Below, in pieces: positions 3,376 through 21,214 of a DNA stretch of 34,215 nt (position 1 is its first letter; the number at the start of each line of letters is the position of its first letter). Made by a program: the position numbers and the translations under genes. Location of the stretch: the NCBI GenBank assembly GCA_030655055.1, contig JAURWH010000186.1, forward strand, positions 1-34,215, in the 5' to 3' direction. This stretch comes from a bacterium (lineage in GTDB: Bacteria; Edwardsbacteria; AC1; EtOH8). The notes under the pieces were generated by a model that made no database searches, had not been told where the DNA came from, and saw nothing but the letters and a program-made list of their open reading frames with translations.

Positions 3376-6300
3376 TCATTGTTCCACCCAGCAGTGTTTG
3401 TACAACTCGGAGCCGAAGGCCCGGGGCCGGAAGCCATGGACGGTGTTCCTGACCGCGGTGGATTTTACGGTGTGATACATGAAAACCCAGGGGGCCTCCT
3501 GCACTATCATCTCCTCGATCTTGCGGTAGCGCAGCAGCCTTTGGCCGGGGTCGCGGATGGTGACGGCCTCGTCCAGCATGGCGTCGATGACCGGGGACTT
3601 GAAGAAGGCCACGTTGCCGGCCCGGCCGGTGTTCTTGGAGTGGAACAGGGGGTATAAAAAATTATCCGGGTCGCCGTTGTCCGAGTTCCAGCCGTTGAAC
3701 GACAGCTGGGACTGGCAGCTGTAGGTCTTTTCCAGCAGGGCCTTCCAGCTTAGGGGATTGATCTTGATGCTGATGCCCGCCTCCCGGCAGTTCTGGAGGA
3801 CGATCTCGGCCCGCTGCCACTGGGCCTTGTTGTCCCGAATGTCCAGCAGGTATTCCCCGGGCAGCCCCCCGGCGTATCCGGCTTCGGCCAGCAGTTTTCT
3901 GGCCCGGTCTGGGTCGTAGCCGTAACCGGCCAGATTTTGATTGTAGGCCCACAGTTCCGGCGGGAAGACCCCCTTGGCCGCCACCGCGTCCCCGGCCAGC
4001 TCGGTGGTCTCTATCAGCGCCTTCTTGTCAACCGCATAATTCAGGGCCTGACGCACCCGTTGATCGGCAAAGGGCGAGACCCGGGAAACATTGATGCACA
4101 GGTACTGGACGTTGAGCTGGGGCAGGCTGACCACCTTCAGGTTGCGGTCCTGGGAAAGGGCCCGGCGCTGAAAACTGTTGACATCGGTGACATCCAGCCG
4201 GCCCGAAGCCAGGGATTCGGTCTTCTGCTCGTCTTTAAGGTCTATGGAATACTTTATCCCCGATAGTGAGATCCGCCGCTCGTGGTAGTGGGGGTTGGGC
4301 TCCAGCTCCAGCGTCTTTCCGGCATCCCATGATTTTAAGATGAACGGCCCCGAGCCCACCGGGTGGCGGGAGAAATCCTGGGTGCCGTCCTCCACCAGTT
4401 CCCTGGGGACGATGGCGGCCATGGTGCAGGCCAGGTTGGAGAGGAACGGCATGAAGGGATATTGGAGCACTATCTTGATGGCATAGTGGTCTATCACCTG
4501 CAGCCCGGCCACTTCCCTGGCCTGGCCCTGGCTGTATTCAGATGCGCCCTTGATCATCTCCACAAAAGACTGGTTGGGCGATTTTATCTTCGGGCTTAGC
4601 AGCCGCTCCAGGGAGTACTTCACGTCCGGGGCGATAAGCTCCCGCCCGTGGCTGAATTTTATCCCCCGCCGCAGGTAAAAAGTCCAGCTCAGCCCGTCGG
4701 GGGAGATCTTCCAGCGCCAGGCTGCGGCCGGCACCACGGCGGAACCGCTGCCGAACTGGACCAGTCCCTCGAAGATCTGGGCCGCCACTTCGTTGGAGGT
4801 GGCGTCGGTCATCATGGCCGGGTCCAGGGTGATGGGGTCGGAGCTGATGTCGGCCTTCAACTGGCCCCCGATGTAATTCTTAAGCCCGGCCGCTTCGATC
4901 TCCGCCCGGCCCAACGAACCCATCCGTTCGAACCAGGCCAGGGAATCCCGGCCTTTGAGCAGGAACCCCGAAAAGCCCTGAAGCTTGGCGGACACTTCCC
5001 GGTAGCTGTGGCTGTACTGGCTGTACCGGTCAAAGATGTCCTGGTGGCGGGACTGCTGGCGGTCGATGCCCGACCCGGCCTCGGCCACTATCTGCTCCAT
5101 CCGCCCCCCGGATTCCCGGGCCAGGTCCAGGGACCTCCTGGCCTGGGAAACCGACTCCAGGCTGGTGGCCATGATCTTCTGGGTCTGCCGGACGGTATGG
5201 CTGGTCTGGGAGAATTGCTCGGTGACCTGCTTCAGCAGGGGCCCGATCCTGGCCGAGTCGGCGGCCGCCTGCTGGGACAGGGCCTGGGCCTGGCCCACTA
5301 TGCCCCCAAATGCTCCGCCCTCCTGGCCCATCTCGGCCACCTCCACCGCGGCGTAGAACGAAAGCAGTTTTATCTGCTCGGTAAAATCCTTGATGGCGGC
5401 GCCGGTCTGGGATATCTCCCCCAGTTTGCCGGCCAGGCCTTCCCGGTCCGACTCAAAATCATCCAGCCAGGTCTTGACCCGGAGCAGATCGTCAAACGAC
5501 CCGGTCAGCCCCTGGTTCATGTCCTCAAAATCCTGGCGGTTGCGGCCGATGCTCTGGCCCATCCCGTCCAGGCTGGATTTGATGCGGTTGATGTTTTCGA
5601 ACAAGGCCTCCAGATTATGCCACATGGCTCCGGCCAGTTCCTCCTCGGCCCCCAGCGCCGTCTTCTGGTCGTCGATGGTGGACTGCAGGTCGCGCCACCG
5701 TTCGGAGGCCGCCTGCAGCTTGGCCTTGAGCATCATCCAGTTGTTCCGGGCCTCGTGCAAAGCGGCCGGGTTTCCGGCCTTTTCCCACAAGCCCAGGGCT
5801 TCGTCCATCTGGTTCTTGGCAAACTCCACCTGCCCCATTTCGCCGGTCTCGGTTGAAAGCACCAGGGCCGCCACCTCCTGGGAGACCGAGAGCCCCTCGG
5901 CGCTCTGGGTGATGTTCTTCAGGCCTCCCACTAATTTGTTCTCCAGCTCCCGCTGCTCCCTGGCCATCAAACCAATCCGGTCAAAATCCTCCACCATTCC
6001 CTGGTTGGACTGGTAAAGGGCATTAAGCTTGTCCTTCACCTGTTCCGCCCCCGATCTCAGCCCGTCCACCAGATGCCGGGATTCCAGCACCCCGGATGAC
6101 ATCTGCTGGATCTTGTCCTTGACCCCCGCCGTCAGGCTGGGGACCAGGGAGGCCGTCTTCTCCATCTCTCCGGCCAGCCGGCTCATGTTCTCGGCGATCA
6201 CCCCGAATCCCTTTCCCTTGCTGCCGGCATGGAAGGCCCGGATCTCGGCGTTGCGCACCAATTGCTTTATCTTGACCGACAGGTCCGCCATCAGCCCGGC

Positions 6301-6726
6301 CAGCTTTTCCAGCTCGGCCGTGGTGGTAAAAAGGTCCTTCAGTTCCACCGCCGACCGCTGGTAGCTCTGGTCCACCAGTTCAAAGGAATCCAAAGCGCCC
6401 TTCAGCTGCTGTTCTGCCCGGGCTATCACCTGCTTGTATTCCTGGCTGTTCCCGGTAACCAGGGCCGAGGAATTGGCGATGGCGTCCATCCCCTCAAAGG
6501 CCTCGGCCAGGGCCGCTCCAAAAGTGTGGATGTTGGCCAGGTGCCCCCGCTCCTCGGCGGCCAGGGCGCTGATGTTCCCCGACATTTCCGGCAGGATCTT
6601 CAGAAACTCGTCTATCTTTTTGAGCACGTCAAGCAGGTCGTCAGACGGCTTCCACCGGGCTTCGGCCGGCCCGGGCGCCTCGATCACCGCCTCGTCGGAC
6701 CTTGAATTGAAGTTGAATAGTTTCAT
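3376..6726 (-). CDS. Cytoplasmic fusion of chemoreceptor-like signalling helices with a family 5 solute-binding domain
   Basis: The protein has 1116 aa, no signal peptide and no membrane segment (it starts MKLFNFNSRSDEAV). Residues about 30-600 are long amphipathic helices. Two segments resemble the conserved hairpin tip of methyl-accepting chemotaxis proteins: residues 152-185 (NAEIRAFHAG, GKGFGVIAE, MSRLA) and 450-485 (IKLLSFYAAVEVAEMG, GGAFGGIV). Residues about 619-1116 match the SBP_bac_5 (OppA/DppA) fold, with ISSDPITLDPAMMTDATSNE, VKYSLERLLSP, HPVGSGPFILKSWD, RVRQALNYAVDKKALIE and LLAEAGYAGG. Such domains are normally exported partners of ABC transporters; here it should sit in the cytoplasm. 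No transporter or chemotaxis gene is adjacent. SgrR is a known precedent for a cytoplasmic SBP_bac_5 sensor, but it carries a DNA-binding domain instead. The ligand and output are unknown. The domain calls are strong; the sensory role is inference. Confidence 0.85.
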   Translation of the reverse strand: MKLFNFNSRSDEAVIEAPGPAEARWKPSDDLLDVLKKIDEFLKILPEMSGNISALAAEERGHLANIHTFGAALAEAFEGMDAIANSSALVTGNSQEYKQVIARAEQQLKGALDSFELVDQSYQRSAVELKDLFTTTAELEKLAGLMADLSVKIKQLVRNAEIRAFHAGSKGKGFGVIAENMSRLAGEMEKTASLVPSLTAGVKDKIQQMSSGVLESRHLVDGLRSGAEQVKDKLNALYQSNQGMVEDFDRIGLMAREQRELENKLVGGLKNITQSAEGLSVSQEVAALVLSTETGEMGQVEFAKNQMDEALGLWEKAGNPAALHEARNNWMMLKAKLQAASERWRDLQSTIDDQKTALGAEEELAGAMWHNLEALFENINRIKSSLDGMGQSIGRNRQDFEDMNQGLTGSFDDLLRVKTWLDDFESDREGLAGKLGEISQTGAAIKDFTEQIKLLSFYAAVEVAEMGQEGGAFGGIVGQAQALSQQAAADSARIGPLLKQVTEQFSQTSHTVRQTQKIMATSLESVSQARRSLDLARESGGRMEQIVAEAGSGIDRQQSRHQDIFDRYSQYSHSYREVSAKLQGFSGFLLKGRDSLAWFERMGSLGRAEIEAAGLKNYIGGQLKADISSDPITLDPAMMTDATSNEVAAQIFEGLVQFGSGSAVVPAAAWRWKISPDGLSWTFYLRRGIKFSHGRELIAPDVKYSLERLLSPKIKSPNQSFVEMIKGASEYSQGQAREVAGLQVIDHYAIKIVLQYPFMPFLSNLACTMAAIVPRELVEDGTQDFSRHPVGSGPFILKSWDAGKTLELEPNPHYHERRISLSGIKYSIDLKDEQKTESLASGRLDVTDVNSFQRRALSQDRNLKVVSLPQLNVQYLCINVSRVSPFADQRVRQALNYAVDKKALIETTELAGDAVAAKGVFPPELWAYNQNLAGYGYDPDRARKLLAEAGYAGGLPGEYLLDIRDNKAQWQRAEIVLQNCREAGISIKINPLSWKALLEKTYSCQSQLSFNGWNSDNGDPDNFLYPLFHSKNTGRAGNVAFFKSPVIDAMLDEAVTIRDPGQRLLRYRKIEEMIVQEAPWVFMYHTVKSTAVRNTVHGFRPRAFGSELYKHCWVEQ

Positions 6727-6904: not shown

Positions 6905-7729
6905 TCAGAGATCCACCTTCTCCGAAGCTATCTTCTGCCCCATGAATATCTCGCCCAGGTGATCAAAATGTTCGCAGGCGTCGGTGGTCAGGTAGCGGCA
7001 GTTCCCGTTCCGGGAGACCTTGGATTCATGCTCCGGGTGCCGGGCCAAGTATTCCTTGAGGCTCGGCGCCACCAGTTCGTCCTGGGAAAGTATCCTGACA
7101 TCCGATGGCAGAAGCGCCTTGATCTGGGGCAGTATCAGGGGATAGTGGGTGCAGGCCAGCAGAAGTGTGTCTATGTCTTCGATTTGGGATTTGGTTTGAT
7201 TCCAATATTTGGTGATATAGTACTTCAGGCCATCACCCTCCAGCTCCCCGGCCTCCACCAGCGGCACCAGCATGGGGCAGGCCTGCTGGACAAGTTTGAC
7301 TCCCGGCGCGTGCTTGGCGATCTCGATGGCAAAGCTTTCGGAGCGGACCGTGCCCTGGGTGGCCCACAAGGCCACCTGGTTGGTCTTGGTGTAGTTGTGG
7401 ATGACCTCCACCGTGGGCCGGATCACCCCCAGCACCCGGCGTTCGGAGTAGTGCTTGGGCAGATACTGCTGCTGGATGCTGCGCAGAGCCTTGGCGCTGG
7501 CAGTATTGCAGGCGATCAGCACCAGGGGACAGCCCTGCCGGAACAGGTAGTCCACCCCTTCGGTGGCGAACTTTAGGACCGCCTCAAAGGAGCGGTTGCC
7601 GTATGGAGTGCGGGCGTTATCGCCCAGGTAGATGTAGTCGTACTGCGGCAGCAGCCGGCGGATCTGCTTGAAGATGGTCAGCCCGCCGAAGCCGGAGTCG
7701 AAGATGCCTATGGGGATGTGTTGGGGCAT
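6905..7729 (-). CDS. murI: Glutamate racemase
   Basis: Cytoplasmic cofactor-independent racemase that makes D-glutamate for peptidoglycan. The 274-aa protein has the full family pattern: IGIFDSGFGGLT with D11 and S12, LGDNARTPYG at residues 35-44, LIACNTASA with catalytic C74, and LLACTHYPL with catalytic C192 and H194. Length is normal. No clear Shine-Dalgarno sequence precedes the ATG at 7729, but the motif at residue 7 leaves no room for a later start. It stands alone, with an unrelated ORF6N gene upstream. Confidence 0.95.
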   Translation of the reverse strand: MPQHIPIGIFDSGFGGLTIFKQIRRLLPQYDYIYLGDNARTPYGNRSFEAVLKFATEGVDYLFRQGCPLVLIACNTASAKALRSIQQQYLPKHYSERRVLGVIRPTVEVIHNYTKTNQVALWATQGTVRSESFAIEIAKHAPGVKLVQQACPMLVPLVEAGELEGDGLKYYITKYWNQTKSQIEDIDTLLLACTHYPLILPQIKALLPSDVRILSQDELVAPSLKEYLARHPEHESKVSRNGNCRYLTTDACEHFDHLGEIFMGQKIASEKVDL

Positions 7730-13375: not shown

Positions 13376-14266
13376 ATGAAGCGATCCCTTTATTTCATAT
13401 CCCTGTTGTTTCTCCTGGGATGCAGCGCCCAACCCCGGCCGCATGGTAAAATGACATTGACCCTCACCGACGACCTGGGCCGCACCGTCAGCCTGAGCCA
13501 AGCCCCGTCAAGGGTGATCTCCTTTGCCCCCAGCCTGACTGAGATGGTCTACGCCCTGGGCGGAGAGGGCCGGCTGGCGGGGGTCACCGCCTGGTGCAAC
13601 TGGCCGCCCCAGGCCAAAGAAAAGACCGTGGTCGGCGACATGATCAGCCCCAACTTCGAGCGGATGGTCTCGCTTAAGCCGGATCTGGCCCTGATGATCG
13701 GCAGCCGGCCCAGTCCGCTGCTTAAAAAGTTCGAAGCCCTGAACATACCGGTGCTCTGCTTCAAGGACGAGACCGTGGCCGACATCCAAAGGGCCTTAAA
13801 AGCGCTGGGCCAGGTGCTGGAAAGCCCAAGCCGGGCGGATTCGTTGACCCGGGAAATGGATCTTCAGCTGGCCGCCATCAAAGCCGCGGTGGATCAGGTG
13901 CCTATGGAGCAAAGACCGAAGGTCTTTGCCGAGCTGGGTTCCTCCCCCCTGTTCGCCGCCGGGGATTCCAGCTTCATCGGCCAGATGATAGCCCTGGCCG
14001 GCGGCATCAATGTCACCGGAAACCTCCCCACATCATATACCGCGGTCAACCCCGAACTGGTGGTAAAGAACGATCCCACCATCATCATCGTGCTCCACCC
14101 CCAGGCCAACAAAGAACAGATCGCACAGCGGCTGGGATGGCAGAATGTCTCGGCCGTCAGAAACGGCCGGATCTACCCCGGGCTGGACCAGGACGTGATC
14201 CTGCGTCCCGGCCCCCGTTTTACGGAAGGAATAAAGATACTGCATGGGATATTCTATGCGCCGTGA
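13376..14266 (+). CDS. btuF: Cobalamin-binding lipoprotein of the BtuFCD ABC importer
   Basis: The 296-aa protein captures B12 in the periplasm and hands it to BtuCD. It begins with a lipoprotein signal (MKRSLYFISLLFLLGC), so C16 should be lipidated, unlike the soluble BtuF of E. coli. The mature part is a cluster A-II-type periplasmic binding protein: DDLGRTVSLSQAPSRVISFAPSLTE, GVTAWCNWPP, IGQMIALAGGINV and the C-terminal VRNGRIYPGLDQDVILRPGPR. Members of this fold also bind haem or siderophores; the cobalamin riboswitch upstream fixes the likely substrate as a corrinoid. It is first in the operon and its end overlaps btuC by 23 bp. Confidence 0.9.
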   Translation: MKRSLYFISLLFLLGCSAQPRPHGKMTLTLTDDLGRTVSLSQAPSRVISFAPSLTEMVYALGGEGRLAGVTAWCNWPPQAKEKTVVGDMISPNFERMVSLKPDLALMIGSRPSPLLKKFEALNIPVLCFKDETVADIQRALKALGQVLESPSRADSLTREMDLQLAAIKAAVDQVPMEQRPKVFAELGSSPLFAAGDSSFIGQMIALAGGINVTGNLPTSYTAVNPELVVKNDPTIIIVLHPQANKEQIAQRLGWQNVSAVRNGRIYPGLDQDVILRPGPRFTEGIKILHGIFYAP

Positions 14267-15224
14267 CATCAAAGCCTGGTATTACCTGGCGCCCTTAAGC
14301 CTTTTGACCATCCTGCTGGGGCTGGCTTCCGGGCCGGCCGGTTTCGGCCTGCTGGCTGACCCCCAGGTGATGGCCATCCGCCTGCCCCGGGTGCTTTTGG
14401 GTCTGCTGGCCGGGGCCGGGCTGGCCTCTTCCGGCGCGGCCCTGCAGGCGGCCCTGGGCAACCCGCTGGCCGAGCCCTATCTGTTGGGCGTCTCCGGCGG
14501 CGCGGCTTTTGGGGCGGCTCTGGCCCTGCTGCTGGGGCTTTCGGCCGGGCTGGGCGGGGCCGTAGGCCTGCCCTTGTTCTCGCTGGCCTTCGGCCTTTTA
14601 GCCCTCTATGTTGTCTACAGTTTGAGCAAGGTGGGGTCCAGGCTGCCGGCGGAGACGGTGATCCTCTCCGGAATAATAGTCAACGCCTTCTTCTCGGCCC
14701 TGATCATGCTGCTTTTGGCTTTGGCCGGGCGCCAGCTGCAGGAGATGATATATCTTTTGATGGGCAATTTGGGGATGATCTTCGGCGCCCAAAGCCTCTA
14801 TCTGTTGTGGGTCTGCGCCGCCATCATCATCCTCTGCACCGGCTACCTCTGGAGCCAGGGGCGCAACCTGGACCTGCTCTCTTTGGGGGAACAGCCGGCC
14901 CAAAGCCTGGGGCTTAAGGTGGAGAAGCTGAAGTTGCGGATACTTTTGGCCTCGGCCCTGATGGTGGCGGCGGTGGTCTCACTGGCCGGGGTGATCGGCT
15001 TCGTGGGGCTGGTGGTCCCCCATCTGGCCCGGATGATTTCAGGACCAAAGAATTCCCGGCTGCTTCCCCTGTCGGTGGTGCTGGGCGCAAACCTCTTGGT
15101 GCTGGCCGACGCCCTGGCCCGGACCATCGCCCCCCAGGAGATCCCGGTGGGGGTGATCACCTCGCTTTTGGGCGTGCCGTTCTTCATCTACCTGCTGCGG
15201 CGCAAAAAGAGGGCCGGGCTGTGA
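14244..15224 (+). CDS. btuC: Cobalamin ABC transporter permease
   Basis: A FecCD-family inner-membrane permease of 326 aa with about ten hydrophobic segments. Family landmarks are RLPRVLLGLLAGAGLASSGA near residue 46, GNPLAEPYLLGVSGGAAFGA near residue 72, and GVIGFVGLVVPHLARMI near residue 250, which includes the coupling region that docks on BtuD. The start is either the ATG at 14244 or that at 14256; GGAAGGA at 14224-14230 serves either imperfectly. It overlaps btuF by 23 bp and its stop overlaps the GTG of btuD, a layout that indicates translational coupling. Confidence 0.93.
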   Translation: MGYSMRRDIKAWYYLAPLSLLTILLGLASGPAGFGLLADPQVMAIRLPRVLLGLLAGAGLASSGAALQAALGNPLAEPYLLGVSGGAAFGAALALLLGLSAGLGGAVGLPLFSLAFGLLALYVVYSLSKVGSRLPAETVILSGIIVNAFFSALIMLLLALAGRQLQEMIYLLMGNLGMIFGAQSLYLLWVCAAIIILCTGYLWSQGRNLDLLSLGEQPAQSLGLKVEKLKLRILLASALMVAAVVSLAGVIGFVGLVVPHLARMISGPKNSRLLPLSVVLGANLLVLADALARTIAPQEIPVGVITSLLGVPFFIYLLRRKKRAGL

Positions 15225-15991
15225 TCAAAGTAAAAGATCTTTCATACCGCTACGGGCCGTTAAAGGCATTGGACGGCGTCAGTTTTTCCCTGCCCCGGGG
15301 AAAGATGGTGGGCCTGCTGGGGCCAAACGGCTCGGGCAAGAGCACCCTCTGCCTGTGCCTGGGCGGAATGCTGGACAGGAAAGGCTTTTCCGGGGAGATA
15401 AAAATATCGGGCCAGGACCTGGGAAGTTTTTCCCCGGAAATACTGGCCCTTAAGATGGCCGTGGTCTTTCAGGACAATTTGTTCTCCTTCGACTTTACCG
15501 CATACGAGATCGTGCTGATGGGACGCAGCCCCTATTTAAGGCCCCTCCAGCCTGAGGGCATCGAAGACCACCAGATCGCCGAAAAGGCCATGCGCGACTG
15601 CGACTGCTTTGGCCTGAAAGACCGGCCCATCAAAAGCCTGTCGGGCGGCGAACGCCAGCGGGTGGTGCTGGCCCGGGCTTTGGCTCAGACTACATCCGTC
15701 CTGCTGCTGGACGAGCCCACCAACCACCTGGATCTGAAGCACCAGAAACAGATCCTGTCTCTGGTGAGGGAACTGGCCGAGTTCAAAGGAGTGTTGTCGG
15801 TGGTGGTGCTGCACGACCTGAACCTGGCCGGACAGTTCTGCGACCACCTGCTGCTGCTGGACCAGGGCCGGTTGGTAAAGCAGGGAACTCCGGAGGAGGT
15901 GCTGACGCCGGAGAACTTGAACCCGGTATACCAGATCAATGTCCATAAGATATCCCATCCTGTGACCGGACGCCCCCAGATAATAATCTAA
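15221..15991 (+). CDS. btuD: Cobalamin ABC transporter ATP-binding protein
   Basis: The 256-aa ATPase energises BtuC. All ABC motifs are present: Walker A GPNGSGKST (residues 34-42), Q-loop Q84 in VVFQDNLF, signature LSGGERQR (140-147), Walker B LLLDEP (161-166), D-loop NHLD and the H-loop histidine H198 in VVLHDLN. It starts with GTG at 15221, overlapping the btuC stop by 4 bp. Length is typical for the FepC/BtuD class. Confidence 0.94.
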   Translation: MIKVKDLSYRYGPLKALDGVSFSLPRGKMVGLLGPNGSGKSTLCLCLGGMLDRKGFSGEIKISGQDLGSFSPEILALKMAVVFQDNLFSFDFTAYEIVLMGRSPYLRPLQPEGIEDHQIAEKAMRDCDCFGLKDRPIKSLSGGERQRVVLARALAQTTSVLLLDEPTNHLDLKHQKQILSLVRELAEFKGVLSVVVLHDLNLAGQFCDHLLLLDQGRLVKQGTPEEVLTPENLNPVYQINVHKISHPVTGRPQIII

Positions 15992-16021
15992 CCGTTTAAC
16001 ATAAATCAGATCGAGGTCCAC

Positions 16022-17932
16022 ATGATCCTATCCCTGCTGGCAACATTTCTTTTGACCGCTGCAGCAATTGACAGCACCTCCGACAGCACCAGGGTCACCA
16101 AATTCATTCCGGACAGTACGGCTGATTCCGTTGCGTCCTTAGACAGCACCGCCGCCGTCAAGACCAAAGAGATGAAGGATTCCCTGGCGGTCTATATGCT
16201 GAAGGGAATGGTGGTCACCGCCACCCGGACCCCGCTGGCTGAACGGTCGGCCCCGGCCTCGGTGTCGGTACTGGAACCCGAACCCCTGACCCCGAATGTT
16301 GACGCCGCCAACCGCCTGTCCCAGACCGCCGGGGCATCCCTGGGCGGCAACGGGGGCCTGGGCAGCGCCCTGTCGCTTTCCATCCGGGGGGCGGCCGCCA
16401 ACCAGGTGCTTTACCTGCTGGACGGACTTCCTGTCAACTCGGCCCAGAACGGTTCTTACGATCTCAACCGGATATTGAGCCAGGCCGAAAGGATCGAGAT
16501 CGTGCGGGGGCCGGCCTCCAGCCTTTACGGGGCCAATGCCGTGGCCGGGGTGATCAACATCATCACCCGGGACTCCAAACAACTCAAACCGTATTCCAGG
16601 ATAAATTTTGAAAAAGGCGGCTACAGCTCCCAGGTCTGGGAGGCCATGGTATCAAGACCTCTGGCCCAATGGGCCTCCCTCTCCATGGGCGCCACCTGGA
16701 AGAAGACCGGCGGACAACGGGTCAATTCCGACTACGACGGCACCAATTACTTTTTGGACCTGTTCGCCCGGCCCTATGACAGGATCGAGACCAAGCTGCG
16801 TTACCAGGAATACAAGTCCCAGAACGGTGTGCCGGGTTCGCTGCTTGATCCTTCCTATACCGACCGGCAGAAGGACTGGGGAAAGGATCTAAGTTTAAAG
16901 GTCAGTTACGACCAGAACAGCTTTGTGGCCGTCTCCCGCAATTCCATCGAGAACATGTGTTATGCCGATGTTGACAGCCGCAACTACACCCGGCAGACCA
17001 ATGTGGACGGCCAATATCAGCATTCATGGATGCCCCAGGCGATCACCACGGCGGGGGCCGGTTACCAGATGGTGGAAAGCTACATCTCCAATGTGGGAAC
17101 GCCGGAACTTCATCATAAAGCTGTCTTCCTGATCCAACAGCTGGAACCATTGAAAGGCCTTTTGCTGGTGGGCAGCGTCAGGTACGACAAGGATTTCGCC
17201 TATCCGGCTCAAACCTCGCCCTCGGTTTCGCTTAACTACGGCTTTTTTGAAGGCCTGAATTTTTACGCCAGCTACGGCCGGGCCTTCCGGGCTCCGACCC
17301 TGAACGAGCTTTACTGGAAGGATGACATCTGGATGATGTACGGCAATCCGGATCTCAAGCCCGAGAGATCCAGCCAGCTTGAAGCCGGGATAAAGACGGA
17401 CATTGTGGGGGTTTCGGCTTCCCTGTCCGCCTTTCAAAGAAACACGCTTGACCTTATCATCTGGGATTATGATCCCTTGACCTGTGTGTCCAAAACCGCC
17501 AATCTGGGCAAGACCATATCCCAGGGGATCGAACTGCAGGCCGGCCGCACTCTTTTTGACCTGGTCACTTTGGACCTCAACTACACCTATTGCCTGACGG
17601 TCCAGGACACCGTGGGCAGTCCCGAACTTCCCTTTAAGCCCCAGCATATCGCCAACGGCTCCGTCTCAATCAACGACATCCAGATCGTGCCCGACCTGAA
17701 ACTGGGCTGGAAGTTCTGGTCCCAGTATTCCGACATCCAATATGACAATATGTACAACCAGACCCTGCCCCGTTATATCATTAGTAACCAGGTGCTTTCC
17801 CTGAAGATCGTAGATGCCCGGGTCTATTACAAGGTGGAGAACCTATTCAACGCTAATTATGAAACCCGCTACGGCTACCCCATGCCCCGCCGCACCCAGT
17901 CATTCGGAGTGACTTTGGAATTATGGGATTAG
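16022..17932 (+). CDS. btuB: TonB-dependent outer-membrane receptor (BtuB-like)
   Basis: The 636-aa receptor takes up cobalamin across the outer membrane. After a short signal peptide (about residues 1-15) there is an unusual Asp/Ser/Thr-rich stretch (about 16-55, several DST triplets), then a likely TonB box MVVTATRT (residues about 63-70). The plug domain runs to about 190 (LSIRGAAANQVLYLLDG, RIEIVRGPASSLYGANAVAG, VINIITR) and a 22-strand barrel follows, with the family stretches YGRAFRAPTLNELYW and GNPDLKPERSSQLE. It is last in the riboswitch-controlled operon, 30 bp after btuD. Cobalamin specificity rests on the operon rather than on sequence alone. No clear terminator follows. Confidence 0.9.
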   Translation: MILSLLATFLLTAAAIDSTSDSTRVTKFIPDSTADSVASLDSTAAVKTKEMKDSLAVYMLKGMVVTATRTPLAERSAPASVSVLEPEPLTPNVDAANRLSQTAGASLGGNGGLGSALSLSIRGAAANQVLYLLDGLPVNSAQNGSYDLNRILSQAERIEIVRGPASSLYGANAVAGVINIITRDSKQLKPYSRINFEKGGYSSQVWEAMVSRPLAQWASLSMGATWKKTGGQRVNSDYDGTNYFLDLFARPYDRIETKLRYQEYKSQNGVPGSLLDPSYTDRQKDWGKDLSLKVSYDQNSFVAVSRNSIENMCYADVDSRNYTRQTNVDGQYQHSWMPQAITTAGAGYQMVESYISNVGTPELHHKAVFLIQQLEPLKGLLLVGSVRYDKDFAYPAQTSPSVSLNYGFFEGLNFYASYGRAFRAPTLNELYWKDDIWMMYGNPDLKPERSSQLEAGIKTDIVGVSASLSAFQRNTLDLIIWDYDPLTCVSKTANLGKTISQGIELQAGRTLFDLVTLDLNYTYCLTVQDTVGSPELPFKPQHIANGSVSINDIQIVPDLKLGWKFWSQYSDIQYDNMYNQTLPRYIISNQVLSLKIVDARVYYKVENLFNANYETRYGYPMPRRTQSFGVTLELWD

Positions 17933-18032
17933 TCTTTGGATATTTTATTAGTAATCCAGGAAAATAGGAAATATTTTTCTATCCTTCATGGTTTCTTCGT
18001 AGTTGTAGTTTATCCTGGCGTTTATATTTACA

Positions 18033-18061
18033 TTGACATCCGGTGGCAGTTCAGCTAAAAT
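18033..18061 (+). promoter_or_regulatory. Sigma-70-like promoter of purN-lnt
   Basis: TTGACA (18033-18038), a 17-bp spacer, then TAAAAT (18056-18061). The expected transcription start (about 18068) coincides with the purN ATG at 18069, so the message may be leaderless. An apparent TTG start for purN at 18033 is in fact this -35 hexamer. Confidence 0.75.
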
Positions 18062-18068
18062 TAAAAAC

Positions 18069-18698
18069 ATGGATAACAAACTTAAAATAGCCTGCCTGGT
18101 CTCGGGCGGGGGCACCAACCTTCAGGCCATAATCGACAACATTGAGGCCGGAAAACTGAAGGCGGAAATTGCCGCCGTGATCTCCAATGTTCCCGGGGCG
18201 GGGGCTTTGGATAGGGCCAAAAAACACGGCCTGCCGGCTTTCGTGGTCAACCACCGGGATTTTACATCCCGCGAACAGTTCGACCGGGAGCTGGCCGCCA
18301 TCATCGACCGCCAGGGGGCAACCCTGGTCTGCCTCTGCGGGTTCATGCGGATCTTCAGCCCCTTCTTCGTGGAGCATTACCCCGGCCGGGTCATCAACAT
18401 CCACCCCGCCCTGCTGCCGGACTTCGGCGGCAAGGGATTCTACGGCCACAAGGTCCACGAGGCGGTGCTGGCTGCGGGCAGGACCGAATCCGGCTGCACC
18501 GTCCACTTCGTGGACAGGGAGGTGGACCACGGCCCCATCATCCTCCAGCGCACCGTGCCGGTCCTGGTGGACGATACACCGGAGACCCTGGCCGAACGGG
18601 TTCTGCATGAAGAACACATCGCCTATTCCCAGGCCATCGAACTCTTTGCCCGGAACCGGCTGGAACTGAAGGATAAAAAGGTTTTGATAAAACCATGA
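18069..18698 (+). CDS. purN: Phosphoribosylglycinamide formyltransferase
   Basis: Transfers a formyl group from 10-formyltetrahydrofolate to GAR in purine synthesis. From the ATG at 18069 the protein has 209 aa. It shows IACLVSGGGTNLQAII (substrate phosphate loop, residues 7-22), GFMRIFSPFF (91-100), and the catalytic triad N110 and H112 in VINIHPALLP plus D153 in REVDHGPIILQ. No Shine-Dalgarno sequence precedes the start, and the promoter lies so close that a leaderless transcript is likely. The stop overlaps the lnt start by 4 bp. Confidence 0.93.
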   Translation: MDNKLKIACLVSGGGTNLQAIIDNIEAGKLKAEIAAVISNVPGAGALDRAKKHGLPAFVVNHRDFTSREQFDRELAAIIDRQGATLVCLCGFMRIFSPFFVEHYPGRVINIHPALLPDFGGKGFYGHKVHEAVLAAGRTESGCTVHFVDREVDHGPIILQRTVPVLVDDTPETLAERVLHEEHIAYSQAIELFARNRLELKDKKVLIKP

Positions 18699-20254
18699 TC
18701 CAAAAACGATCCATGCAATTCATCTTGGCAGGTCTCACCAGCCTGCTTTTATTTTCGGCCTTCCCCCTGTTGACGCTTTGGCCCCTGGCCTTCGTCTGCC
18801 TGACCCCCCTGATGTCCGCGGTCAAAGAACTTCCGGCCAGAAAGACCTTCCTGCTCTCCTGGCTTTCGGGGACGATCTTTTACATCGGCTTGCTGCACTG
18901 GATAGTCTTCAACCCCGCGGTGGAGGGCTGGGTAAAACCCCTGCTCTATCTGGGAGTGGTGCTGATCGGCTTCTATCTCTCGCTCTATTTTGCCCTGAGC
19001 TTTGCCCTGGCTAAATGGCTGGCCGTCAGGACCAGGATCCCTTTCTGGGCCTGGCTGGCATTATGCCTTCCAACGTTTGATCTTCTGCGCAGCCAGGGGC
19101 TTTTGGGATTTCCCTGGGGCAGCCTGGGATACGCGCTGGTCCCCTGGACCAACGGGATCCAGATGGCTGCGCTGACCGGAGTTTACGGCCTGACCTTCTG
19201 GGCGGTGCTGGTAAACGGCCTGCTGTTTGGTCTGGGATCAAGGATATGGAGCCAGCGGACCGGTTTGTCAGAAACATTCAGAAAGCCCAAAACAATTGCA
19301 ATGGCCCTGGGTTTGGTTTTGCTGCTTGTTCTGCCCCCCTGGCTGGGAAGCCTGGCCGTCCGCTCGGTGGAGAAACTGTCTTCAAGCTCGCCCCGGTTGA
19401 ATACCGCCTTGATCCAGGGCAACATCCAGCAGGGCATGCGCTGGGACCGGGAATTCCAGCGTTTCAACTTTGAGGAATACAAAAGGCTGACCCTGGACGC
19501 CTCCGCCCAAAAGGTTGGCCTGGTGGTCTGGCCGGAAACGGCCCTGCCGTTTTACCTGAGATTTCAGCCCCAGTACGGCAACCAGATGCGGCAGCTGGCG
19601 GACCGGACAAATTCCCTGATCCTGACCGGAGTCCCGGACATGGCCGCGGATGACAATCAAAACCAATTGTACTTCAACGCCGCCTTCCTCTTTGCCCCCG
19701 GCCGGGGGCTTTTGGGCAGTTACGCCAAGAGCCGGCTGGTGCCCTTCGGCGAAAGGTTCCCCTTGAAGGACAGGATACCGTTTTTAAAGAATGTCAATTT
19801 CGGCGAGGGGGAGTGGACCGCTGGCTCCGACACCATTGTATTTGAAACGCCTGAGGCAGCCCTGTCCTGCCTGATATGCTTCGAGTCCATCTTCCCGGAA
19901 ATATCCCGGCATCAGGTTAACAAAGGCTCAAAACTTCTGGTCAACATCACCAACGACGGCTGGTTCGGGCGCTCCGGGGCCGCCATGCAGCACGCCCAGA
20001 TGGCCGTCCTGCGGGCGGTGGAGAACCGCCGGGCCGTGGCCCGCTGCGCCAATTCCGGCATCTCCATGTTCATCCTGCCCACGGGCAAGGTTCTGCAGCC
20101 CACCCCGCTGTATCAGCAGACGGTGACGGTGGAGTCCCTGCCGTTGCTTTCCGTCAGGACCTTTTACAGCCGTTTCGGGGACGTGTTCCAGTATGGCCTG
20201 ATACTGCTGATCGCCATTGGGGTTTTAGTCCCCTTGGCCAGAAAACGGTCATAA
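18695..20254 (+). CDS. lnt: Apolipoprotein N-acyltransferase
   Basis: Inner-membrane enzyme that adds the third acyl chain to lipoproteins in two-membrane bacteria. The 519-aa protein has several N-terminal membrane segments (residues about 8-220, including LLGFPWGSLGYALVPW), a periplasmic nitrilase-like domain (about 235-480) and a last membrane helix (about 497-513). The catalytic triad is visible: E281 in VVWPETALPF, K345 in YAKSRLVPFGE and C395 in SCLICFESIFPE. ITNDGWFG and AVENRRAVARCANSGIS also match the family. It overlaps purN by 4 bp and ends in a strong terminator. The lipoprotein BtuF in this window is one plausible substrate. Confidence 0.94.
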   Translation: MIQKRSMQFILAGLTSLLLFSAFPLLTLWPLAFVCLTPLMSAVKELPARKTFLLSWLSGTIFYIGLLHWIVFNPAVEGWVKPLLYLGVVLIGFYLSLYFALSFALAKWLAVRTRIPFWAWLALCLPTFDLLRSQGLLGFPWGSLGYALVPWTNGIQMAALTGVYGLTFWAVLVNGLLFGLGSRIWSQRTGLSETFRKPKTIAMALGLVLLLVLPPWLGSLAVRSVEKLSSSSPRLNTALIQGNIQQGMRWDREFQRFNFEEYKRLTLDASAQKVGLVVWPETALPFYLRFQPQYGNQMRQLADRTNSLILTGVPDMAADDNQNQLYFNAAFLFAPGRGLLGSYAKSRLVPFGERFPLKDRIPFLKNVNFGEGEWTAGSDTIVFETPEAALSCLICFESIFPEISRHQVNKGSKLLVNITNDGWFGRSGAAMQHAQMAVLRAVENRRAVARCANSGISMFILPTGKVLQPTPLYQQTVTVESLPLLSVRTFYSRFGDVFQYGLILLIAIGVLVPLARKRS

Positions 20255-20275
20255 TATTTCCAGACACAAGATACT

Positions 20276-20308
20276 AAAGACGCCGGCAAGTTTGCCGGCG
20301 TCTTTTTT
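20276..20308 (+). terminator. Intrinsic terminator of the purN-lnt unit
   Basis: A perfect inverted repeat (20276-20289 against 20292-20305, with a CGCCGGC core) runs into TTTTTTT. It lies about 20 bp after the lnt stop codon. Confidence 0.92.
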
Positions 20309-20377
20309 TATGCTTTCAGGGAATAAACCCCCGCTTTCTCCCGTATATTCTACAGAACTAAAAAAGGAGCAAACACC

Positions 20378-21214
20378 ATGAAGAACATATTCTGGCTGTT
20401 ACCGCTGGCTGGAGCCCTGCTGGGGTTCGCCGCAAGCTACCTGGCCCTTTACCTGAAGCTTAAACTGGCCCCCGTTCCCGGCTACACCAGGGCCACCTAC
20501 CGGGCCATCGAAACCTTTGACCTGAAGTCGGCCCTTTTCAGCACCGCGCTTCTGATGGTTCTAGCCATGGGGGCGGCCGGTGGTTATCCGGTAATCCGGG
20601 ACCTCCTGCAACCGGAACCGGCGGGGCCGGACGGCGGGAACCGGGTCATCATCCCGATGCCCATGGACTCCCTGATCCGGATGATCCCCCAACCCAAGTC
20701 GGTTGATCCCAACCAGAATGCGGAACCGCAGGATATTGGTCTGATCAAGCGCCCGGCCTTCGGCAGCAAAATAGTTTTGGTGGATGACAACGCTTCCGAC
20801 ACCACCGAATTTGACGACCGGACCAACAATGACATAGTGAACTCCTTTTCCAACCGTAACAGCCCGGCCAACGACAGCCTGATTCGGAACGCGGTTGTGG
20901 ACAACAACGCCGATCTTCCCAAGCCCGGAGATTATGTGGCCTATAGCACCTCACCCGCTCCACTTAATGTGCTCCGGCCGGTCTACCCCTCCATCTGCCG
21001 GACCATGGGGGCCGAAGGCAAAGTCACCCTTTATGTGCTGGTGGACAAGGGTGGCCAGGTGGCCAAGGTCAGGGTGCTTAAAAGCTCGGGCAACGAAGCT
21101 CTGGACGAGGCGGCCATGGAGGCATTAAGAGCCTCCACCTTCTCCCCGGCCCTGCAGGGCGATAAGCCGGTGGCGGTCTGGCTGAGCTACCCGGTGGTGT
21201 TCAGTTTGGAGTAA
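20378..21214 (+). CDS. TonB-family energy transducer with two predicted membrane helices
   Basis: The 278-aa protein ends in a TonB C-terminal domain (about residues 190-278: VLRPVYPSICRTMGAEGKVT, VDKGGQVAKVRVLKSSGNEA, LDEAAMEALRASTFSPALQ). The N terminus has two hydrophobic segments (about 4-26 and 52-68), whereas ordinary TonB has one. The linker (about 80-185) is rich in Asp and Asn and lacks the usual Pro/Glu/Lys repeats. AAGGAG precedes the ATG. No exbB or exbD gene is in the window. It could energise the BtuB-like receptor nearby, but that is inference. Terminators flank it on both sides, so it is probably monocistronic. Confidence 0.85.
   Translation: MKNIFWLLPLAGALLGFAASYLALYLKLKLAPVPGYTRATYRAIETFDLKSALFSTALLMVLAMGAAGGYPVIRDLLQPEPAGPDGGNRVIIPMPMDSLIRMIPQPKSVDPNQNAEPQDIGLIKRPAFGSKIVLVDDNASDTTEFDDRTNNDIVNSFSNRNSPANDSLIRNAVVDNNADLPKPGDYVAYSTSPAPLNVLRPVYPSICRTMGAEGKVTLYVLVDKGGQVAKVRVLKSSGNEALDEAAMEALRASTFSPALQGDKPVAVWLSYPVVFSLE

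Follow-up and report, generated by a model that had tools for sequence, protein, structure and literature searches.

Ordinary chemoreceptors are dimers with an N-terminal sensor, and they often span the membrane to the outside. Two cytoplasmic examples, Tm14 of Thermotoga maritima and FrzCD of Myxococcus xanthus, carry one signalling hairpin per chain, Tm14 forming dimers, and neither has a sensor domain of the solute-binding protein (SBP) type. E. coli SgrR is a cytoplasmic DNA-binding regulator with a domain of the SBP_bac_5 type. In our study, one gene was analysed in a stretch of 34,215 nucleotides (the window; contig JAURWH010000186.1) from a 2.37-Mb, 98% complete genome of Candidatus Edwardsbacteria, and its product was found to join two hairpins of the methyl-accepting chemotaxis protein (MCP) type to an SBP_bac_5 domain (Table 1). 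The reading which we favour, with a probability of about 0.72, is that of a non-methylatable cytosolic single-chain receptor which senses a peptide-like intracellular ligand and controls CheA, the output probably being motility linked to MglA and Roadblock proteins.

Natural soluble chains with two MCP signalling hairpins have been described with no role assigned to them, and engineered Tsr-Tsr chains gave near-normal serine responses through CheA if the linker was long enough (PMC4692393). The present family resembles them in being soluble and in having two MCP hairpins per polypeptide. The accessible passages of that paper mention no binding-protein domain in the natural chains, whereas the present family has SBP_bac_5 at its C-terminus; moreover, its two tips have drifted apart in sequence, and its gene heads a che operon in the WOR-3 bacteria. 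In M. xanthus, surface motility and MglA/MglB polarity are targets of a CheA pathway fed by cytoplasmic FrzCD (PMC10329633, PMC6952110). The likeness to the Frz system lies in a che operon followed by Roadblock (MglB-type) genes, along with an MglA-like GTPase in Edwardsbacteria, but the link of the fusion family to MglA is purely one of gene order. No description of an SBP_bac_5-chemoreceptor fusion, nor of WOR-3 bacteria with chemotaxis and MglA, was found in a literature search which left most subscription journals outside its reach, so that this is weak evidence.

The open reading frame of the fusion gene has no internal stops. In the Pfam search, SBP_bac_5 was matched at residues 664-1033 (E 1.8e-82) over model positions 2-366 of 368 and is therefore complete, and the whole protein scored 66.8 bits for MCPsignal over two stretches, with a cut-off of 34.6 bits and E 2.7e-18. 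In the whole-genome search two MCPsignal matches stood separately above the cut-off in one open frame (39.2 and 35.0 bits). A sequence-only reading of the window had proposed two MCP tip-like segments and a complete SBP_bac_5 domain in a single chain of 1116 residues, and it is borne out for both families, including the MCPsignal match in the helical part on which it depended. One full-length copy (41-92% identity) is present in each of the 10 available Candidatus Edwardsbacteria genomes, the copy of genome G006 having its start cut by a contig end; these uninterrupted single frames rule out a frameshift joining two genes as well as a chimeric assembly. In the helical part, EAD11 and DUF1664 gave Pfam matches under the cut-off, which were taken as coiled-coil noise; no DNA-binding domain was seen among the Pfam matches, and no NCBIfam model spans the fusion architecture.

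By its sequence, the protein is predicted to be cytosolic. Averaged over 19 residues, hydropathy peaks at about 1.2, and in none of the 10 Edwardsbacteria orthologues does it go beyond about 1.5, so neither a signal peptide nor a membrane helix is apparent, as had been claimed before; the same was found in more than 20 family members, and none of the 22 members of the alignment A2 has a plausible signal peptide. A missed signal peptide was ruled out by this hydropathy analysis, in which the only other SBP_bac_5 protein of the source genome, with a lipoprotein signal and a hydropathy of about 2.0, served as positive control.

The same architecture was found in WOR-3/Stahlbacteria by a profile scan of named genomes, although single-protein scans of genome contigs and viral contigs had given no relatives. 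Of 100 sampled WOR-3 genomes, 34 have the fusion at E <= 1e-120, in frames nearly all of 1035-1138 residues, and each of the 22 aligned members has a match to SBP_bac_5 as well as to MCPsignal (the latter at E <= 0.01). In a tree with 31 other SBPs, the SBP domains of 26 fusions group together as a single clade (support 100/100), and because of this the fusion most simply appears to have arisen once. Also inside this clade is a paralogous subfamily whose MCPsignal scores are weak and which has no che genes nearby. As a separate observation, the orphan Stahlbacteria paralogues have degenerate tips (L136:475-3738, L137:281-3142, L138:3603-6770, L139:1013-4252 and L074:2105-5254), and those in L074, L136, L138 and L139 adjoin a coiled-coil protein (about 720-730 residues where complete) and not che genes.

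The helical part was modelled with AlphaFold2 on the alignment of 22 sequences, with a predicted local distance difference test score (pLDDT) of 85.5 and a predicted template-modelling score (pTM) of 0.68, whereas the single-sequence run (pLDDT 41.5) was unusable. Four long helices were predicted at residues 29-166, 168-317, 320-465 and 467-613, if short breaks are ignored; the turns lie at 167, 318 and 466, and the pLDDT is mostly 70-93 in hairpin 1. In each of the four arms hydrophobic residues recur with a period of 3.48-3.5 residues (power 31-36, against a 99th percentile of about 8 in shuffled sequences). Hairpin 2 of the family aligns by profile over 230 residues with the soluble Thermotoga receptor Tm14 (2ch7, E about 1e-28), and neither of the two has a membrane segment; hairpin 1 aligns with 6s18, 3g67 and Tsr (1qu7). 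A fold search with the whole model was uninformative on the helices, since the SBP domain fills the list and only SBPs were among the matches listed.

The distance from tip to tip is 280-306 residues (L075, with its start cut, was left out of this comparison), and half of it roughly matches the stretch between tip 2 and the SBP domain. Between Edwardsbacteria and one group of Stahlbacteria the tips differ in spacing by 14 residues, that is one heptad per arm, as in the known receptor length classes. The equal arm lengths and the helix turns are compatible with one bundle per chain, and we infer that the protein is a single-chain soluble chemoreceptor, a natural pseudo-dimer in which the two hairpins pack as one four-helix bundle. 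The two hairpins recognized earlier thus stand as MCP hairpins, but they are better described as one pseudo-dimer than as separate receptor domains. The tips are the most conserved windows of the helical part (tip 1 at the 99.5th and tip 2 at the 93rd-95th percentile), also within Edwardsbacteria alone (alignment A1), and these windows agree within one or two residues with the earlier placements at 152-185 and 450-485. Glu462, presumably the equivalent of Tsr Glu385, is invariant in 22 relatives.

The operon context is the strongest guide to function. In WOR-3 the genes that come after the fusion gene, all on its strand, encode CheW, CheY, CheA, CheC/CheX, a tetratricopeptide repeat (TPR) protein of 800-900 residues, in many cases a DUF4388 protein, and Roadblock/LC7 proteins. 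This order was counted on at least 26 distinct contigs (13 and 13 further, with repeats removed and a few cut by contig ends). The CheA of the operon has the domains Hpt, P2, dimerisation, ATPase and CheW, and it is the only CheA of the genome in all seven WOR-3 genomes checked (G010-G016). The earlier remark that no cheA or cheW gene is adjacent thus holds for the window and fails for these relatives, and the doubt expressed on a chemotaxis-type pathway finds no support. With gene order as strong support, the fusion protein probably works in the CheA pathway.

Edwardsbacteria have an orthologous operon on another contig, which contains genes for AcrB, CheW, CheY, CheA, CheC, TPR, DUF4388, Roadblock, an MglA-like GTPase, CheR and CheD and, farther along, CheB, a second CheW and two membrane MCPs. 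Its CheA is orthologous to the WOR-3 partner CheA, and the identity between the two operons is 54-56% for CheC and about 70% for CheY. The GTPase has weak Arf/Roc and small_GTP matches, and its naming as MglA-like draws on its sequence, that of a small GTPase, and on the known features of MglA. In G035, a WOR-3 genome, the fusion gene and a cluster of MglA, CheD and DUF4388 genes are divergently oriented. PilB/PilT-family ATPases were found in all 15 genomes tested and flagellin in none of them; because of the missing flagellin the output would probably be motility of the type IV pilus type, and we see an even chance that it is motility of this MglA/pilus kind.

Some further features of these clusters were recorded. 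A protein with a DnaA-type ATPase domain follows directly after the MglA-like gene in the Edwardsbacteria che/MglA/CheR cluster (L140:5889-7283, L042:4549-5943), and a weak CheW-like protein together with a serine/threonine kinase with PEGA domains comes after the two membrane MCP genes (L042:15519-17614). These two MCP genes, neighbours in most Edwardsbacteria, are one fused frame of about 1254 residues in G009 (L054:6255-10019), with the best HAMP and MCPsignal matches of Pfam in its C-terminal half, and fused MCP-type frames of about 1270-1290 residues also occur in G005 and G006.

The sensor domain is the best conserved part of the fusion protein. Its closest solved relatives, by profile as well as by fold, are the dipeptide- and glutathione-binding proteins DppA (1dpp, E 4e-114), HbpA and GbpA (3m8u), and the model of residues 619-1115 matches the fold of 5u4o with Z 44 and a root-mean-square deviation of 2.1 over 471 residues. 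It shares with these proteins the conserved motif GW..D.G.PDNF, which includes the position of the ammonium-binding aspartate; whereas they are exported and serve ATP-binding cassette (ABC) transporters, the fusion SBP domain is predicted to lie in the cytosol, joined to a receptor bundle. No ABC permease adjoins the fusion gene and no signal peptide was found, so that the pairing of export and permease seen with ordinary SBPs is lacking here. Asp1016 is aligned with DppA Asp408, presumably the residue holding the alpha-ammonium group of the bound peptide, and every member examined has it, four paralogues found without the motif among them. The invariance of GW..DNGDPDNFL in A2 is partly selected, since the profile scan used the motif, but the four paralogues and the Edwardsbacteria orthologues are free of this bias. 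The carboxylate-binding arginine of DppA is not clearly kept. A DppA R383D+D436R structure was among the fold matches listed; these numbers denote the same two ligand residues in precursor numbering. As to a free alpha-amino group on the ligand, the odds are about even.

An intracellular sensor signalling through a helical bundle had been proposed earlier; the cytoplasmic location and the joining of sensor to bundle stand, but the sugar-phosphate ligand, drawn by analogy with SgrR, does not fare well, as dipeptide-type models match best. The likeness to SgrR is a cytoplasmic SBP_bac_5-type domain, whereas the SgrR model NF010149 matches no more than residues 644-798, with a score of 45 bits where the cut-off is 476; an SgrR-type regulator was rejected on this ground and for want of a DNA-binding domain.

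No consensus site for CheR was found in the fusion protein, and 18 of the 22 members also have none. On the other hand, the membrane MCPs of the source genome carry 2-5 such sites, and CheR is present in all 15 genomes tested. Since the sites are missing although the membrane MCPs have them, the receptor is probably not methyl-accepting and would report the ligand level without methylation-based adaptation.

The following mechanism can be proposed. The two equal-length hairpins of one chain would form the four-helix bundle that is usually made by homodimers, with the dipeptide-type SBP domain in the cytoplasm at the bundle end away from the tips. A ligand, most likely a peptide or another compound with a free alpha-amino group, would close the two lobes of the SBP domain, and this movement would travel along the 20-heptad bundle to the tips. 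There, the tips together with CheW would control, in whichever direction the ligand acts, the CheA of the WOR-3 fusion operon or its Edwardsbacteria counterpart. CheY and CheC would carry and terminate the signal, and the output would act through the TPR, DUF4388, Roadblock and MglA-like proteins on surface motility of the type IV pilus type or on polarity.

Several observations weigh against this receptor. Tip 1 retains RNA..A..AG..G.GF, with K or R at the position of Tsr E385 (Tsr numbering) and H for R388, and tip 2 retains the E385 equivalent and, in WOR-3, R388, with Y for N381 and the G.GF turn lost. The second hairpin had rightly been called diverged, and the same applies to tip 1. Because both tips deviate from the canonical residues, the canonical contacts with CheA and CheW may fail to form, and a pTM of 0.68 leaves the packing of the bundle less secure. 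The fusion gene is not adjacent to cheA in the source genome or in other Edwardsbacteria, some WOR-3 members (L165, L166 and L176) have no che genes nearby, and the paralogous subfamily is located apart from che genes. Moreover, membrane-type MCPs were found in every genome searched; membrane MCPs with canonical tips are among those of these genomes and could be the main input to CheA. The complementary divergence of the tips and the membrane-type MCPs would also suit a member of the receptor array which is no true sensor, its tips acting as adaptor, decoy or organiser and its SBP domain binding a protein or being a vestigial clamp. This is unlikely, as the conservation of the SBP domain and of its ammonium-binding Asp, which extends to the paralogues that were not selected by motif, as well as a single fusion event with long retention, favours a working binding site. 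In a single-chain receptor, the complementary divergence fits two halves which may have become specialised.

The surroundings of the gene in Edwardsbacteria bring in the cell wall. The order murI, fusion gene, RluA-family pseudouridine synthase and OmpA protein is kept through most of the phylum, and a cell-wall amidase is often close. murI and the fusion gene are on the same strand and possibly co-transcribed; in one genus the stop of murI and the start of the fusion gene overlap as ATGA, which is a sign of their co-expression. The murI and amidase neighbours weakly suggest a peptidoglycan-related ligand. Because of these neighbours, and because the murein-tripeptide binders MppA and DppE are among the fold matches listed, an intracellular sensor of peptides from peptidoglycan breakdown or of its precursor peptides can be thought of, in which recycled murein peptides, or a relative of these that contains D-Glu, are bound by the SBP domain and the cell-wall state is passed through CheA to MglA/Roadblock polarity. 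We regard this as quite unlikely; no murI-type or cell-wall neighbour of the fusion gene was seen in WOR-3. The murI neighbour with its translational coupling in one genus, along with orphan paralogues of weak MCPsignal score and no che neighbours, could also be taken to indicate a coiled-coil scaffold outside the CheA pathway, for instance in peptidoglycan metabolism, with the WOR-3 operon as a historical trace. However, the tips remain the most conserved helical windows within Edwardsbacteria, these genomes keep a CheA orthologous to the WOR-3 partner, and the CheW-CheY-CheA order recurs on at least 26 contigs, so that such a scaffold is very unlikely. Non-classical export, by which the protein or its SBP domain would be an ordinary binding protein outside the inner membrane, where SBP_bac_5 domains usually act, is extremely improbable. 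Binding-protein-dependent permeases do occur in 14 of 15 genomes, but more than 20 members are free of signal peptides and membrane helices whereas the other SBP of the source genome has its lipoprotein signal, the helices are of the cytosolic CheA/CheW-binding type, and the gene stands in an operon with cheA and cheW.

Table 1. Positions in the window of the fusion gene, its parts and its upstream neighbour
Feature	Positions	Strand	Basis
Whole gene, putative single-chain soluble chemoreceptor with C-terminal SBP_bac_5 domain (1116 residues and stop)	3376..6726	-	Translation of the open reading frame
Hairpin 1 of the helical bundle, residues 29-317	5776..6642	-	AlphaFold2 helices; MCPsignal match; 3.5-residue period in both arms
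Tip 1, residues 152-185, motif [AS]RNA[EG]I[KT]A[FY]HAG..G[RK]GF.V[IV]A	6172..6273	-	Conservation in the 22-sequence alignment
Hairpin 2, residues 320-613	4888..5769	-	AlphaFold2 helices; profile alignment to 2ch7
Tip 2, residues 450-483, motif LLS[LF]YA.[IV]E.A	5278..5379	-	Conservation in the alignment
SBP_bac_5 domain, dipeptide-binding type, residues 619-1116	3379..4872	-	Pfam; profile against 1dpp; fold match to 5u4o
Codon of Asp1016, aligned with DppA Asp408	3679..3681	-	Alignment to 1dpp
murI (glutamate racemase), upstream neighbour	6905..7729	-	TIGR00067 above cut-off; synteny; junctions

Elsewhere in the window, positions 13376-21214 hold an uptake cluster of the iron/cobalamin type with a periplasmic binding protein, a FecCD permease, an ABC ATPase and a TonB-dependent receptor, and a TonB-like gene lies farther on. 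A second SBP_bac_5 protein of about 700-730 residues with a lipoprotein signal is encoded on contig C140 of the source genome (L043:1853-3973) and also in L028, L030, L035, L036 and L037. By Pfam, the L043 protein has a TonB C-terminal domain, and similar C-termini are present in other Edwardsbacteria copies; this fusion of SBP and TonB_C is an unusual architecture which is kept in the phylum.

The fusion family brings together an unusual set of features, as both halves of the bundle lie in one chain with non-identical tips, the sensor is C-terminal and of the transporter type, and the protein is cytosolic by prediction and lacks methylation sites. Two uncultured phyla have retained this arrangement, and in one of them the fusion gene stands at the head of a CheA operon which also has Roadblock, DUF4388 and TPR genes. 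If our reading is true, this would be a natural receptor in which the two non-equivalent positions of the dimer exist as separate sequences, which was the aim of the engineered single-chain Tsr, and a nutrient-transport protein would have been turned into an internal gauge for the control of motility.

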